Source: Acidaminococcaceae bacterium
GTDB lineage: Bacteria > Bacillota > Negativicutes > Acidaminococcales > Acidaminococcaceae
Length of the DNA stretch: 38,550 nucleotides
Assembly (NCBI GenBank): GCA_017460905.1
Contig: JAFTZZ010000033.1
Location: 1 to 38,550, forward strand
Direction: 5' to 3'
Each line of letters opens with the position of its first letter. Positions within the stretch are counted from its first letter, which is position 1. Positions 2,560 through 28,125 of this stretch are shown here, piece by piece. Position numbers and translations under genes: made by a program. The notes under the pieces are model-generated. The model was not told the origin of the DNA. It did no database searches and saw only the letters and a list, made by a program, of their open reading frames with translations.

Positions 2560-2896
2560 TGTTTACCTCTTCCGCTGCGTACTCGCAGCTATACTTAAAA
2601 TGTCCAATCAGACTGTCCGCCGCATACGGGATATGGTGGAGCTGCTGCCCATCCACAGCCCCGCGCCGGTCATACCAGTGTTCTACCAGCTGGCATACGC
2701 AAATCTGGAAAAGTTCCGTTTCTTCAATGTCGACAGGTTCGCTGTTTCCATTTCCGACATACGTTTTTTTCCCGCTTTGCTCTTTAATGTACTGGGTTGC
2801 CGACCCGATCAAGCCGTTCAGCAGCGGATCGTCATCTGTGACGTCTATACGACAATACTGTTTAATTTTCGTCAGAGTGATGGCCAACTTAATCAC
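2531..2896 (-). CDS. Head-tail connector, gp6-like
   Basis: A 121-residue, mostly helical protein of the Phage_connect/HK97 gp6 type, which forms a ring under the portal. It shows the family pattern: YCRIDVTDDDPLLNGLIGSATQYIKEQSG followed by ELFQICVCQLVEHWYDRRGAV. The start is GTG at 2896, overlapping the stop (2889-2891) of the capsid frameshift extension. Its ribosome-binding site is weak, so reinitiation after the extension is plausible. The 3' end overlaps the chaperone gene by 29 nt. Confidence 0.8.
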   Translation of the reverse strand: MIKLAITLTKIKQYCRIDVTDDDPLLNGLIGSATQYIKEQSGKKTYVGNGNSEPVDIEETELFQICVCQLVEHWYDRRGAVDGQQLHHIPYAADSLIGHFKYSCEYAAEEVNNDSGQNSGA

Positions 2897-3224
2897 CCAC
2901 AGTAATTAAATATTCAATATCCGTTTCATCTTCCAATAAAATGTGGAACGTTTTTTCACCATCAGCAAGGCCGGACAAGTATTCCTTTTTAATGGTTATG
3001 CTGCCGCCGCCTTCCGCGATGGTATAATTATCCGCATTTACATTGGAGGTGTTATTTTTCAAGCCTACGATTACGCCGTCCGTGACTTCGACAACGACGT
3101 CAGCAGCAGAAGCCCGGCTGAAGGTTGTGCTGTTTTCCGTCGTCTCGGATCCGTTATCTCCGGCTCCGGAATTTCCGGAGCCGGAGTCGCCAGATCCATC
3201 CTCTACGGTCTCAGTCAGGACGAT
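2889..3224 (-). CDS. -1 frame extension of capsid protein: Ser/Gly linker plus X2/Ig-like domain
   Basis: This frame opens at the slippery site 3224-3230 and runs 111 codons to TAA (2889-2891). No ATG and no Shine-Dalgarno precede it, so it should be made only as a fusion to capsid residues 1-402, giving about 513 residues. A linker rich in Gly, Ser and Asp (GDSGSGNSGAGDNGS) leads to a beta-sandwich sequence: VVVEVTDGVIVGLKNNT, NADNYTIAEGGGSITIKKEYL, GLADGEKTFHILLEDETDIEYLITV. The G..N.T..Y.I..G..ITIKKEYLSGL.DGE pattern matches X2/Ig-like modules found on phage capsids and tail proteins. Likely role: surface-exposed domain that binds glycans or host mucus. The domain call is by pattern. Confidence 0.75.
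   Translation of the reverse strand: MVLTETVEDGSGDSGSGNSGAGDNGSETTENSTTFSRASAADVVVEVTDGVIVGLKNNTSNVNADNYTIAEGGGSITIKKEYLSGLADGEKTFHILLEDETDIEYLITVGD
3158..3186 (-). other. Perfect 14-bp hairpin in the capsid-extension linker
   Basis: Arms 3158-3171 and 3173-3186 are perfectly complementary with a single central base, so the actual loop would open by a few bases. The hairpin lies about 37 nt downstream of the slippery site, encoding the Gly/Ser linker. That distance is too long for a classical 5-9 nt frameshift stimulator, so its effect is uncertain. Confidence 0.5.
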
Positions 3225-4429
3225 TTTTTTAAGTAAGCAAACGCTTTGGTGGTCAGCGGCTGGCCATCAACCAGGGCGTAACCCATGTAATCGGTTGTGC
3301 GAGTTAAAACGTGATCCTCCTGGTACATGGTCACGTCTTCGTTAACGTTCATAGCGTAGCCGTCTGCCATATTGCCCAGCAGCACAGCGTTTGCCGGGAT
3401 CGCGTCCTCTTCCACTACAACGATACCGAAAATACGGCCAACGCCGCCGCCGGTAATATCCGGAACAAATACCGGGCGGTCGTTGCCGTCCAGTACATTG
3501 GCCAGACCGTTCCAAATGGTCGCAGCTTTTGCGTAAAATTTCGCCTTGCCGGCGTAACCGGATCTAATCAGCCCGCGAATGGCGGTCAGGTCTGCGTAGG
3601 TAATGCCATTTGCTGCAGTATAGGATCTTACCTGCGGAGTGTTGGTTTCCGCTTCCAGTTTGGTAACTACACCCACCGGCTCGGTCGGGTCCGGGCTTTC
3701 CGTGTCGGAATCAACGCCTGCGCCAGTAACCAGGCCAGCAGCCAAAGCGTTGCCCATCTTATCGGCAATACGGGTCTGGATATAGGCAATGAATTCCTCG
3801 ACGGCCATCTTTTTCAGCTTCCAGGAAACAGAAATGGCTTTTGCAAGTTCGCAGCCCTTTAAAGTGATCTTTGCGTTAGTCGCTTTTTCAGCGGTAACGG
3901 CATCCTCTTCATACCAGGCGGCATCGTTGCCAACGGAGGTTTCTACCAAAATATCGACGTCGCCGTGGATATTGGTGCGAACAACGTCCGCAATAATCGG
4001 ATGGCGCTCTTCCATTTCGTGCCAAATGCCCTGCTTCATGGTCGCAGGAATTACAACGTAATTCTCTTTTGCGGTAGTGGTCGCATTTTTGGCTGCAAAA
4101 ATCTTTTCTTCATCCGCGGACAGTTTGGCTCCCATCATATAATGCGCAAACGCATTAATATAAAGTTTTTCCTCGTCCGCTTTCGGTTCTGCCACGCCCG
4201 GAACGCCTGCAGAATTTAACACTGCAGGTACCGCCGGTACAGCAGCGACCTGGGTGCCGTTCAGGGCGGCCAGGTTCGCCGCAGCCGTAGCCAGCCTCTG
4301 AAATTTGTCATCCAGGGCCGTCACTTTCTTGTTGAGCTCTTCCGCCTCGGCTGCGTTTCCGGCTTCAATCGCCGCTTTCATCTGCGCCAGCAGCTCGGTG
4401 CGTTCTTTTTCATACTGTTTTTTGTCCAT
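3215..4429 (-). CDS. Major capsid protein, HK97 fold
   Basis: A 404-residue HK97-type capsid precursor. Residues 1-60 form a charged coiled coil (delta/scaffold domain; QYEKERTELLAQMKAAIEAGNAAEAEELNKK region), followed by an Ala/Pro-rich stretch and then the shell domain from about residue 90. The protease gene just upstream is expected to remove the delta domain. Shell-domain patterns include VVIPATMKQGIWHEMEERHPI, AWYEEDAVTAEKATNAKITLK and VDGQPLTTKAFAYLKK at the C-terminus. The final codons before TGA contain A_AAA_AAA (3224-3230), which should divert a fraction of ribosomes into the X2/Ig-like extension. The start lies 20 nt inside the end of the protease gene. Confidence 0.92.
   Translation of the reverse strand: MDKKQYEKERTELLAQMKAAIEAGNAAEAEELNKKVTALDDKFQRLATAAANLAALNGTQVAAVPAVPAVLNSAGVPGVAEPKADEEKLYINAFAHYMMGAKLSADEEKIFAAKNATTTAKENYVVIPATMKQGIWHEMEERHPIIADVVRTNIHGDVDILVETSVGNDAAWYEEDAVTAEKATNAKITLKGCELAKAISVSWKLKKMAVEEFIAYIQTRIADKMGNALAAGLVTGAGVDSDTESPDPTEPVGVVTKLEAETNTPQVRSYTAANGITYADLTAIRGLIRSGYAGKAKFYAKAATIWNGLANVLDGNDRPVFVPDITGGGVGRIFGIVVVEEDAIPANAVLLGNMADGYAMNVNEDVTMYQEDHVLTRTTDYMGYALVDGQPLTTKAFAYLKKSS
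3224..3230 (-). promoter_or_regulatory. Slippery heptamer A_AAA_AAA at the end of the capsid gene
   Basis: Seven adenines on the leftward strand are phased TTA AAA AAA TCG in the capsid frame (codons 400-403), exactly A_AAA_AAA. The 0 frame ends three codons later, while the -1 frame is open for 112 codons. The same heptamer occurs in the tail chaperone gene of this phage. Confidence 0.8.
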
Positions 4430-24644: not shown

Positions 24645-24946
24645 GGTTTTACTGGCCACACGATCGCCAGCGGAAAGTCTTCCTGTTCCGGCACGTCCCG
24701 GAGCGCCTGCCGGTATACCTTCCACGCATCGACATCCACATTAGGCCGGTCCGGTACCAGCATATTGTCGCAATCGTCCAGCAGCCGGTTCCGGTATTCC
24801 CGCGCCGCCTCGGCCGCTTCCTCTTCATTCTGCGCCTCTACTGCGGCCTCATACCGTCGACGCAGCACTCCATCTGTATGTGAGTAGGCATACTGGAGAT
24901 AATTAGATCGTCTTGCCTCTTCAACTCCCTGCGCTTTGCATTCCAT
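24641..24946 (-). CDS. Phage tail assembly chaperone-like protein (Phage_TAC/APC type)
   Basis: A 101-residue protein ending with the hallmark of tail-fibre-associated chaperones: RNRLLDDCDNMLVPDRP, VDAWKVYRQALRDVPEQEDFPLAIVWPVKP. These proteins usually follow fibre genes and help their assembly. The ATG has AGGAGGG 6 nt upstream, inside the RT gene, so the first 36 codons overlap the RT 3' end by 109 nt in another frame. It may be dedicated to the diversified fibre protein. Confidence 0.8.
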   Translation of the reverse strand: MECKAQGVEEARRSNYLQYAYSHTDGVLRRRYEAAVEAQNEEEAAEAAREYRNRLLDDCDNMLVPDRPNVDVDAWKVYRQALRDVPEQEDFPLAIVWPVKP

Positions 24947-26148
24947 TCGGGTGCCCTCCTATTAAATAATTGATAGTATAGCCGGCGCATCTGGATAACC
25001 TGCATATAACAATCTTGCTGCAATATACCAGCCTGCCAGCATTGAAAACTGTTTGCTATGGCTGCCATGCTAATTTTTCCGGCATCCAGCAGCTTCTTTT
25101 GTTTGCGCAGCCTCCTGCGCGCTTTTCTCATACTTGACCGGTGTTTTCGGATAACAACCTTACCCGTTACGCCCACGCGGATCCGCCAGTGCAATAAGAT
25201 TATACCACGGGCCAACGGATATAATTGCGTTTTCGGGTTTAGCGTTAATTTCTTCCGGTGTAAAAACTCCGCAATTTTACCCCGGCAATATCTTAGATAT
25301 TCTTTACTTTCATGCACCAGTACAAAGTCGTCCATGTAACGCGCGTAGACTTGGATCCCTAACGTTTCCGTTATGTAATGATCCATATCATTCAACAGCG
25401 TGATCTGTGTGGTCTGCGTTACCTGACTCCCCAGCCCGACGCCTTTAAAATCGCCTTGCTGGATCCTTTTGGTTACTGCAGTAACCTGGCTGCTGTTCAG
25501 CCCTTTAATTACTCTTTTCCAGTCGCCTCCGTATATCAGGTAGCTTGAAATTCTATGTCCTGCATTATGGGCGTCTCTCTTGGCCATTCCCTGGGCCATT
25601 AAAATTTTTGTAAATTCAATTTCCGTAAAACTGCGGATGACATCCTCGCAAGCCCGCACAGTGTATGAATCCACGTATTGCGCTGTATTGCTGCATACGA
25701 CATCATGGTTGCTATTCGGAAAATATCCTTTTATGTCACATTGGAGAACATGCGCGTTATTACCGTGGATCCTCGCAAACTCCCGCAGCTGGGTCAGAAA
25801 AACATCAATGCAAAACTTTGTGCCCTTACCCTTCTGGCAGGCGCAATTTGCTTTGATGAATGTCTTTGTTACAGCCGGATATACGATATCGTCAATCAAG
25901 GCGTGCTGATACTGCCTATCTTTGATATTGGACGCGTAAATATCTCGCTGCTTGGGCTCCGTGATTGTAAACCACAAATATTTCGATATTCTGTATCGGC
26001 CTGTTTTGATGTCCTTGCGTAAACGGTATGTGTTAAGCAGCCGGTCCAACCAATATATTGCGACGCTTTTCTTCCATTTCGTTCCCCTGGTACATCTCTG
26101 TAGCCGTTTTAATAGGTTGTGATATTCAATTGCTTCCTGGTATTCCAT
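24838..26148 (-). CDS. DGR reverse transcriptase
   Basis: A 436-residue retroelement-type reverse transcriptase. Motifs: RDIYASNIKDRQYQHALIDD (RT1), ACQKGKGTK (103-111, RT2), LQCDIKGYFPNSNH (RT3, Asp138), KGVGLGSQVTQ (236-246, carrying the GxxxSQ-type sequence characteristic of DGR enzymes), QVYARYMDDFVLV (RT5, YMDD 271-274) and LNPKTQLYPLARGIILLHWRI (RT6/7). The C-terminus is basic (KHRSSMRKARRRLRKQKK), as in DGR thumbs. It makes mutagenised cDNA from the template repeat with the Avd-like protein. It lies downstream of target, Avd and TR, the canonical order. The 3' end overlaps the next gene by 109 nt. Confidence 0.95.
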   Translation of the reverse strand: MEYQEAIEYHNLLKRLQRCTRGTKWKKSVAIYWLDRLLNTYRLRKDIKTGRYRISKYLWFTITEPKQRDIYASNIKDRQYQHALIDDIVYPAVTKTFIKANCACQKGKGTKFCIDVFLTQLREFARIHGNNAHVLQCDIKGYFPNSNHDVVCSNTAQYVDSYTVRACEDVIRSFTEIEFTKILMAQGMAKRDAHNAGHRISSYLIYGGDWKRVIKGLNSSQVTAVTKRIQQGDFKGVGLGSQVTQTTQITLLNDMDHYITETLGIQVYARYMDDFVLVHESKEYLRYCRGKIAEFLHRKKLTLNPKTQLYPLARGIILLHWRIRVGVTGKVVIRKHRSSMRKARRRLRKQKKLLDAGKISMAAIANSFQCWQAGILQQDCYMQVIQMRRLYYQLFNRRAPEWNAKRRELKRQDDLIISSMPTHIQMECCVDGMRPQ

Positions 26149-26266: not shown

Positions 26267-26897
26267 TGCAATCGGGGGCAACGGCGTTGCTGTTGTTCGC
26301 ATTGTTGTTGTTGACTGCGCCCGATGAGTTGACTATCCGCGCATTATTCGCGTTGCCGGGATTCGGGGAACGTAACCACTGATTTCGGGCAGTATTAGTA
26401 TTATTCTCCACAATGCCGAACGGCATTGATTTTAAACTTTGTACTTCTGTTTCTAATTTTGCCAGCCGGATGGCCCGCTGCTGCAACAATCTGTATCTGC
26501 GTTCTTTGTCTGATTTTATCCATGCTTTTAACAATCTAAGCGCGTCGTCCACCAGCCCGATCCAATGCTCCAGGCCGTCGATCTTTCTGTCGTCGTTAAA
26601 TGTGGTAAGATACCGCACCACGTCAGAAACTGCAGCCAGCGCTTTCAATTGCTTTTTGTGGCGCATTTTATACTCCAGATCGTCGTCGATTTGAAATTCA
26701 TTAGCAGCCATTATATTGTGCAACACGGCGGTCGTTGCTTTTAATAGCGGGATCCGTTTGGTGAACGTAGTCGATTTTGTAAAATACGATCCGCCTTTCG
26801 TTCCCTTCATTTTCTGCATCGTGTGATTAAGTAAATTCTCTGCAGCAATAGCAACGTTTAAATCGTTTGGTTTTCTTTTCCATGCCGGCACTGACAT
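26247..26897 (-). CDS. avd: Avd-like DGR accessory protein with TR-encoded C-terminus
   Basis: A 216-residue frame. Residues 1-150 are basic and helical (VAIAAENLLNHTMQKMKGTK, KRIPLLKATTAVLHNIMAAN, LAAVSDVVRYLTTFNDD, LRLLKAWIKSDKERRYRLL), matching the four-helix Avd bundle that binds RT and RNA. Residues 169-211 are encoded by the template repeat, in the same frame as the target protein: a stretch of 13 Asn plus QWLRSP and ARIVNSSGAV. Whether this tail is made or is only RNA template is open. In well-known DGRs avd ends before or within TR. Confidence 0.85.
   Translation of the reverse strand: MSVPAWKRKPNDLNVAIAAENLLNHTMQKMKGTKGGSYFTKSTTFTKRIPLLKATTAVLHNIMAANEFQIDDDLEYKMRHKKQLKALAAVSDVVRYLTTFNDDRKIDGLEHWIGLVDDALRLLKAWIKSDKERRYRLLQQRAIRLAKLETEVQSLKSMPFGIVENNTNTARNQWLRSPNPGNANNARIVNSSGAVNNNNANNSNAVAPDCMDGRTE
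26267..26393 (-). repeat. DGR template repeat (TR)
   Basis: 127 bp, matching the VR at 26991-27117 with 112 identities and no gaps (offset 724). All 15 differences are at adenines of the TR coding (leftward) strand: 7 A-to-T, 4 A-to-C and 4 A-to-G. AAC/AAT codons dominate, giving maximal codon diversity when mutated. The 3' part (left end) is GC-rich (CGCCGTTGCCCCCG), the expected initiation-of-mutagenic-homing-like end. Confidence 0.95.
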
Positions 26898-26961: not shown

Positions 26962-28125
26962 TTATCCTGCAGCCTTGCGAGCATAGATTCTGCAAGCGGG
27001 GGCAACGGCGTAGCTGTAGTACGCAGTGCCGTAGCTGACTGCGCCCGATGAGTTGACTATCCGCGCATAATGCGCGTAGCCGGGAACCGGGGAACGTAAC
27101 CACTGATGTCGGGCAGTCCCGCTGTTATCGTACATTATGCGATCTATATCGGTCGCGCCTTTGTAGTAATCCCATTGCGTTTCGTTCAGGTTTGCGCCTT
27201 CCGTGCTTCCGAAAATCTGGAATCGGGAGGGCAGCCAGAACGTGGCCCGCATCGAATAGCTGGAGCCGGTTTCGTAGCCGTCTGTTTCAAAAATATTGTT
27301 AGTGATCGTGCTAAAATCTACCGGGGAGACAATTTCCAGAAAGTCGTCCGGCAATTTACTCATGAAACCGGGCTGTGAAGCCTGCCAGGTCGGAGGGTTG
27401 TCAAACCGGTTTGTTGGTGCCCAATAGCTTCCGGCAGCTTTGTCGCTGTTCAAATATTGATGTATTGCGCTTTGTGCATAGTTGTTACTGCCGTAGGCTG
27501 CTCTGTGTATACTGTTTGCGTTTTCGTTATCCGGGTCCCCCGTGGGGTTTATAACGCAGAGTTTCGTCCCGGCGCTTCCGGATGTAATTGGCACGGTCTG
27601 GGAGGCCGTCAGCGACGCCGGTGTATCATAAACTTTAACGCTGCACGCCGTCACGCCTCCGCTTTTGCTATATACCACATCTAACCCGGCCAACCTGCCG
27701 CCGGCAGGCACAGCCTGCAGCAATGTAAAGTTGTAATTTCCAACATTTGCCTCCCCGTATTTTGTTCCTACTTCAAAATAGTATTGACCCGCAGGCAATG
27801 CCGTTTCGCAGTAAAAAAACGCTTCCGGCGAATCAAACTGCAGCAGATCTACGGCCTTACTGACTCGGATATCGGCATACGGGCGGCCGTCTTCCAGCTG
27901 GCCGTGATGCATGAATGTCCACGGATATGTATAATTCCCCTTGGTTGTCAAAAAAGTGGTCCCTACCGGGAACATCTTGGAGCCGCCTCCGGAATCAATG
28001 ATGTCCTTCATTTGCCGGAAACTGAGTTCCGACCGGTCGCGTAATATTGCGTTAAGCCCCCACAGGGCCGCTGCCATGTCCTGCCCGGTTTCGTCCAGCA
28101 GGGCCGGTTTTGTTATTTGTGCCAT
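26962..28125 (-). CDS. DGR variable protein, tail-fibre tip with DUF6273/C-type-lectin-like domain
   Basis: A 387-residue receptor-binding candidate. The N-terminal 60 residues look like a fibre attachment segment (TKPALLDETGQDMAAALWGLNAILRD). Residues 65-180 form a beta-rich domain. From about 185 the DUF6273/C-lectin-like domain has SIHRAAYGSNNYAQSAIHQYLN, WQASQPGFMSKL, RATFWLPSRFQIFG and the C-terminal QWLRSP...ARIVNSSGAVSYGTAYYSYAVAPACRI. Variable repeat residues 337-379 cover the ligand-binding face in this fold. Thirteen codons differ from TR, mainly Asn to Tyr, His, Ser, Gly, Thr or Val. The fold call is by pattern. Confidence 0.9.
   Translation of the reverse strand: MAQITKPALLDETGQDMAAALWGLNAILRDRSELSFRQMKDIIDSGGGSKMFPVGTTFLTTKGNYTYPWTFMHHGQLEDGRPYADIRVSKAVDLLQFDSPEAFFYCETALPAGQYYFEVGTKYGEANVGNYNFTLLQAVPAGGRLAGLDVVYSKSGGVTACSVKVYDTPASLTASQTVPITSGSAGTKLCVINPTGDPDNENANSIHRAAYGSNNYAQSAIHQYLNSDKAAGSYWAPTNRFDNPPTWQASQPGFMSKLPDDFLEIVSPVDFSTITNNIFETDGYETGSSYSMRATFWLPSRFQIFGSTEGANLNETQWDYYKGATDIDRIMYDNSGTARHQWLRSPVPGYAHYARIVNSSGAVSYGTAYYSYAVAPACRIYARKAAG
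26991..27117 (-). repeat. DGR variable repeat (VR)
   Basis: 127 bp at the 3' end of the target gene, 112/127 identical to TR. Differences are restricted to TR adenines. The invariant blocks encode QWLRSP and ARIVNSSGAV, the structural core, while mutated codons cluster between them and towards the C-terminus. The VR stops 29 bases before the end of the gene, whose last codons are fixed. Confidence 0.95.

Follow-up and report, generated by a model that had tools for sequence, protein, structure and literature searches.

The major capsid protein gene in the window (the whole stretch of 38,550 nucleotides that was analysed) very probably ends in a programmed −1 frameshift that yields a minor capsid protein bearing an X2 immunoglobulin-like (Ig-like) domain. 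The signal, the coding and the conservation of both are seen in the DNA, and from these we infer slippage and co-assembly. While decoding TTA AAA AAA, ribosomes would be held up by a stem that starts only a few nucleotides further on, its 5′ arm lying over the stop codon. Slippage by −1 on A_AAA_AAA (a step and an efficiency that we infer) would carry a minority of them past the stop and through 111 more codons, and the resulting minor capsid protein of 513 residues would end in a flexible linker and the X2 domain. By analogy with phages T3 and A2 and the Listeria phages, this minor form would co-assemble with the normal subunit and show X2 on the surface of the head. A slippery heptamer in the 0 frame, a covarying downstream structure and a −1 open reading frame (ORF) conserved as protein, three marks of bacterial −1 frameshifting, were all found. 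Together with purifying selection on the −1 ORF and the lack of any independent or in-frame capsid X2 among the relatives, they lend strong support to the frameshift first proposed in a sequence-only reading of this DNA.

The capsid gene lies on the minus strand and ends GCT TAC TTA AAA AAA TCG TCC TGA, with an exact A_AAA_AAA at 3230–3224, as had been claimed (Table 1). The open −1 frame and the fusion product of about 513 residues described in that reading were likewise confirmed, 111 codons being followed by TAA and the predicted fusion comprising 513 residues. The claim that the extension has no start codon of its own also held, since ATG, GTG and TTG are absent from the −1 ORF ahead of the domain in the window's lineage. 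Lacking a start, the X2 extension will probably be overlooked by gene callers. Taken alone, an open −1 frame of such length is not rare in this window, because neighbouring genes overlap. The −1 ORF stands above chance because of the comparative evidence, and not because of its length.

Table 1. Positions of the capsid recoding region and of the diversity-generating retroelement (DGR) in the window.
Feature	Positions	Strand	Remarks
Major capsid protein gene	3215..4429	−	0-frame product 404 aa; HK97-fold family; Pfam Phage_capsid E = 5e-32; PHROG major head protein E = 4e-52
Slippery heptamer A_AAA_AAA	3224..3230	−	Read TTA AAA AAA in the 0 frame; kept as A_AAA_AA(A/G) in 21/21 X2-bearing relatives
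TGA stop of the 0 frame	3215..3217	−	6 nt past the heptamer, within the stem 5′ arm
Conserved stem, 5′ arm	3208..3222	−	CGTCC, TGACT (over the stop), GA mismatch, GAC
Extra GC-rich hairpin in the loop	3158..3186	−	12 bp, CTCCGGCTCCGG/CCGGAGCCGGAG; codes for the Ser/Gly linker; window's own lineage only
Conserved stem, 3′ arm	3077..3092	−	GTC..AGTCA.CGGACG, in X2 codons V-E-V-T-D-G
−1 extension	2889..3224	−	111 codons (3224–2892) and TAA (2891–2889); no start codon before the domain
X2 (CBM_X2) Ig-like domain	2892..3134	−	Pfam PF03442; AlphaFold2 pLDDT mostly >90; Foldseek
DGR reverse transcriptase (RT)	24838–26148
DGR template repeat	26267–26416
DGR variable repeat	26991–27140
DGR target, DUF6273	26962–28125

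The extension codes for a linker (Ser/Gly in the window's lineage) followed by the X2 domain. The X2/Ig-like identity assigned in the sequence-only reading, for which a profile search against CBM_X2 had been proposed, proved right: the window's domain matched Pfam CBM_X2 with E = 2e-6 at 28.2–28.4 bits, just below the curated cut-off of 28.9, and CBM_X2 was also matched by each of the 20 related domains (best E = 2e-13). An AlphaFold2 model based on 20 sequences is an Ig-like β-sandwich with pLDDT mostly >90 across the domain, and its top matches among solved structures (Foldseek) were the Ig-type modules of GH5 glucanases. Profile matches were also obtained to the X2 module of a scaffoldin (PDB entry 1ehx; E = 0.0015) and to a module of an IgA protease (PDB entry 9qa6; E = 3e-14); these modules belong to the same domain family by profile, although they occur in secreted or surface proteins and not in virions. 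What is found here is an HK97-type capsid protein with a C-terminal, out-of-frame Ig-like domain. A search of PHROGs with the extension returned weak matches only, and no match to the X2 extension was found in cultured phages.

Capsid relatives were gathered from genomes and viral contigs, and their 3′ ends were read in all frames. A_AAA_AA(A/G) stands in the correct frame in all 21 distinct relatives with a −1-frame X2 domain, compared with an in-frame heptamer in four of the 71 distinct relatives without X2 (Fisher p = 4e-17, for sequences that share ancestry and counts that are not independent events). Apart from the four heptamer carriers, the X2-less relatives with a Lys-Lys pair at the site, 13 in number, never have A as the preceding base. 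The −1 frame encodes one X2 domain in the window, L001, L006–L010, L066, L067, L069, L079, L107, L120 and others, two in L095 and L104, and three in L005, L064, L065 and L068. An X2 profile search added L165, as well as capsid-like genes that lie outside the family or at a distance from it: those of L153 (four X2 domains), L154 (two) and L164. None of the relatives examined carries X2 in frame on the capsid gene or as a separate gene beside one; a relative with the domain as an independent gene with its own start, named beforehand as the case that would speak against a frameshift, was sought among them and was not found. The cultured capsid relatives (Caldibacillus CBP1, Paenibacillus PG1, and C. 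difficile and Lactobacillus phages) are without the X2 extension. The nearest named host record is L042, an Acidaminococcaceae genome from goat reticulum. In some of the C. difficile phages an A-run lies near the capsid end, but the −1 frame there spans only 21 codons and was taken as chance.

The conserved stem begins about 6 nt past the heptamer; the 5′ arm overlies the stop codon, and the 3′ arm falls among the codons of X2. RNAalifold predicted a stem 3′ of the heptamer in the short-linker group. When the register was anchored on the heptamer and on the Asp codon of the X2 motif DVV, the same pairing was found in the window's, L001, L005 and short-linker types, the two anchored blocks being 34 to 103 nt apart. 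Across 14 distinct sequences with the loops removed, 89.6% of cells were paired and 36 were double-change cells, with compensatory double changes in 8 of the 11 stem pairs. The covariation score of the stem was 0.688, versus 0.238 after shuffling and at most 0.10 after sliding, and the register ranked first among 170–180 in each of the 13 sequences tested. Furthermore, 131 of 140 pairs were observed, against 96 ± 4.7 (maximum 111 in 2000) under resampling of synonymous codons, and the pairing is thus not explained by the protein alone. The register is kept in L165 and in L164, the capsid gene of which is distant; in L153 a stem is present in a shifted register, and L154 has no clear stem. L006 and L008 gave weak folding scores against synonymous shuffles, yet have the stem in register. 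In the window's lineage the stem is interrupted by a mismatch of 2 nt, has a large loop and is a longer-range pairing that encloses the GC-rich linker hairpin. This hairpin was itself considered as the stimulator and was rejected, as only the window's lineage has it and it is a long way downstream of the heptamer. A search of Rfam gave nothing above chance.

Frameshifting by the ribosome has to be weighed against slippage of the polymerase, which would add an A on the A7 tract and produce an A8 mRNA with the domain fused in frame. The homopolymeric site would suit such a process, and the run reaches nine A in L008 and L154 and ten in L153. However, the site of L009 is A_AAA_AAG, with a run of only six A that is still a proper tandem-slippage site, and the covarying stem lies at ribosomal spacing and has no obvious role for a polymerase. 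Ribosomal tandem slippage is preferred for these two reasons, and transcriptional slippage is considered improbable. A_AAA_AAA or A_AAA_AAG with a stimulating stem-loop is also the arrangement described in insertion-sequence cases (PMC4066793).

Re-initiation at a non-standard start past the capsid stop, which would make the X2 ORF an independent gene, could make use of a GTG or ATG within the linker of some relatives. No start codon exists in the window's lineage or in L006–L009, however, no obvious ribosome-binding site lies upstream in the remaining relatives, and the heptamer and stem would be left unexplained, so that this reading has very little probability. Runs of A7 are error-prone, and the frame relation might in principle reflect a homopolymer error in sequencing or assembly, or a decayed in-frame fusion. 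The same relation recurs, however, in 21 distinct sequences from many assemblies, and both frames are under purifying selection, which leaves error or decay a next to negligible chance.

The extension is under purifying selection in the −1 frame, as is the gene in the 0 frame. Its dN/dS is mostly 0.05–0.3 (0.05–0.07 in the window's own type and 0.06–0.3 in other pairs, with the pair L007/L107 set aside as too close to judge). In own-type pairs, dS is near 0.3 in the extension and about 1.5 in the capsid core. The capsid genes of L001 and L002 are near-identical at the start and in the extension and divergent in the core, which may represent recombination or a chimeric assembly. The low dS of the extension and the L001/L002 pattern would fit modular exchange, and RNA constraint could partly lower dS. 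On the capsid tree, X2 requires 4–5 changes, one of them being L071 (an X2 carrier left unlabelled in that count), and therefore repeated gains or losses.

Among the relatives examined, X2 on tail-tube genes is always in frame, whereas on capsid genes it is always reached by a −1 shift. A tentative explanation, which we regard as possible but somewhat short of probable, is that X2 travels among phage capsid genes as a self-contained recoding cassette consisting of the heptamer with the adjacent 5′ arm, the linker and the 3′ arm in the first X2 strands. A recipient capsid gene would then gain the domain and its low dose together, tail-tube genes would acquire X2 in frame and at full dose, and the selected trait would be control of the dose on the capsid. 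With the 3′ arm located in X2's own codons, the signal could travel along with the domain. Through the difference between capsid (out of frame) and tail tube (in frame), the question of why phages ration Ig-like domains on the capsid can be tested directly. In-frame C-terminal X2 domains were observed on apparent tail-tube proteins in L042 (9912+), L065 (7939+), L074 (7312+), L104 (7284+) and L120 (6620+), with further such fusions in L155–L163, L166, L168–L169 and L171–L173; the window's own tail-tube protein (519–1031) has no X2.

Frameshifted minor capsid proteins are already known as a kind from T3, A2 and the Listeria phages. To our knowledge, the domain on the capsid extension of A2 is not that of the present phage. 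Some of the Ig-like domains found in phages arise by frameshifting, as in T3 and A2 (−1), in A118/A500 (−1) and in PSA (+1, with a capsid pseudoknot), and the choice of frame has been viewed as chance (relayed in PMC5009743). In Lactobacillus phage A2, another phage with another host, a −1 shift in the capsid gene also produces a minor form of the capsid protein that is extended at its C-terminus by an Ig-like domain (Garcia 2004, as summarized in PMC5009743). A −1 shift in gene 10A/10B of T3/T7 also gives a longer minor capsid protein, Ig-like in T3 (PMC5009743); unlike in the present phage, these are T7-like capsids without an X2 domain. The Listeria phages PSA, A118 and A500 have frameshifted capsid extensions too, with a 3′ stimulatory pseudoknot in PSA (PMC5009743), but the PSA shift is +1 on a proline codon, whereas that proposed here is −1 on A_AAA_AAA with a long-range stem. 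In the SPP1 tail tube (gp17.1/gp17.1*), a frameshift adds a β domain (FN3) to a minority of the copies of a repeated virion protein (PMC6316719); this is a +1 shift in a tail, whereas the tail-tube X2 domains of the present phages are in frame. A literature search of limited scope found no report of X2 on a capsid. The new aspects are the X2 domain, the range of uncultured phages, the conserved stem that reaches into the domain and the contrast between capsid and tail: a conserved RNA-plus-domain cassette, with one to four domains, is present on several capsid types in many uncultured phages. A guess from one genome has in this way become a broad family of uncultured phages that share a conserved recoding signal.

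By analogy, the displayed X2 domain would serve as an adhesion or decoration module. In phage K1F, a site homologous to that of T7/T3 has been used for display, the frameshifted minor capsid protein presents Ig-like domains on only some of the subunits, and binding of such domains to mucus and epithelium has been reported (PMC13370021). The capsid X2 might adhere to mucus or glycans and be paired with the DGR-diversified fibre as two adhesion systems, as the sequence-only reading had suggested. The DGR that it described is present, with an RT and with template and variable repeats of 150 nt that are 83% alike; 18 of their 26 differences fall at template adenines.

Other −1 extensions were also observed. 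In L010, an acidic tail of GEDP repeats lies behind the X2 domain. L128, one of the four X2-less heptamer carriers, has a different −1 domain; the capsid genes of L128 and L129 carry A_AAA_AAA, a stem 3′ of the site and a 96-codon −1 extension that, read by eye, resembles a SAP/HeH-type helical domain rather than X2. In L049, L050 and L054 (Lachnospiraceae), the capsid gene ends with GGGGGAATAA and a −1 frame of 140–208 codons encodes another, apparently β-rich domain, possibly through a separate frameshift.
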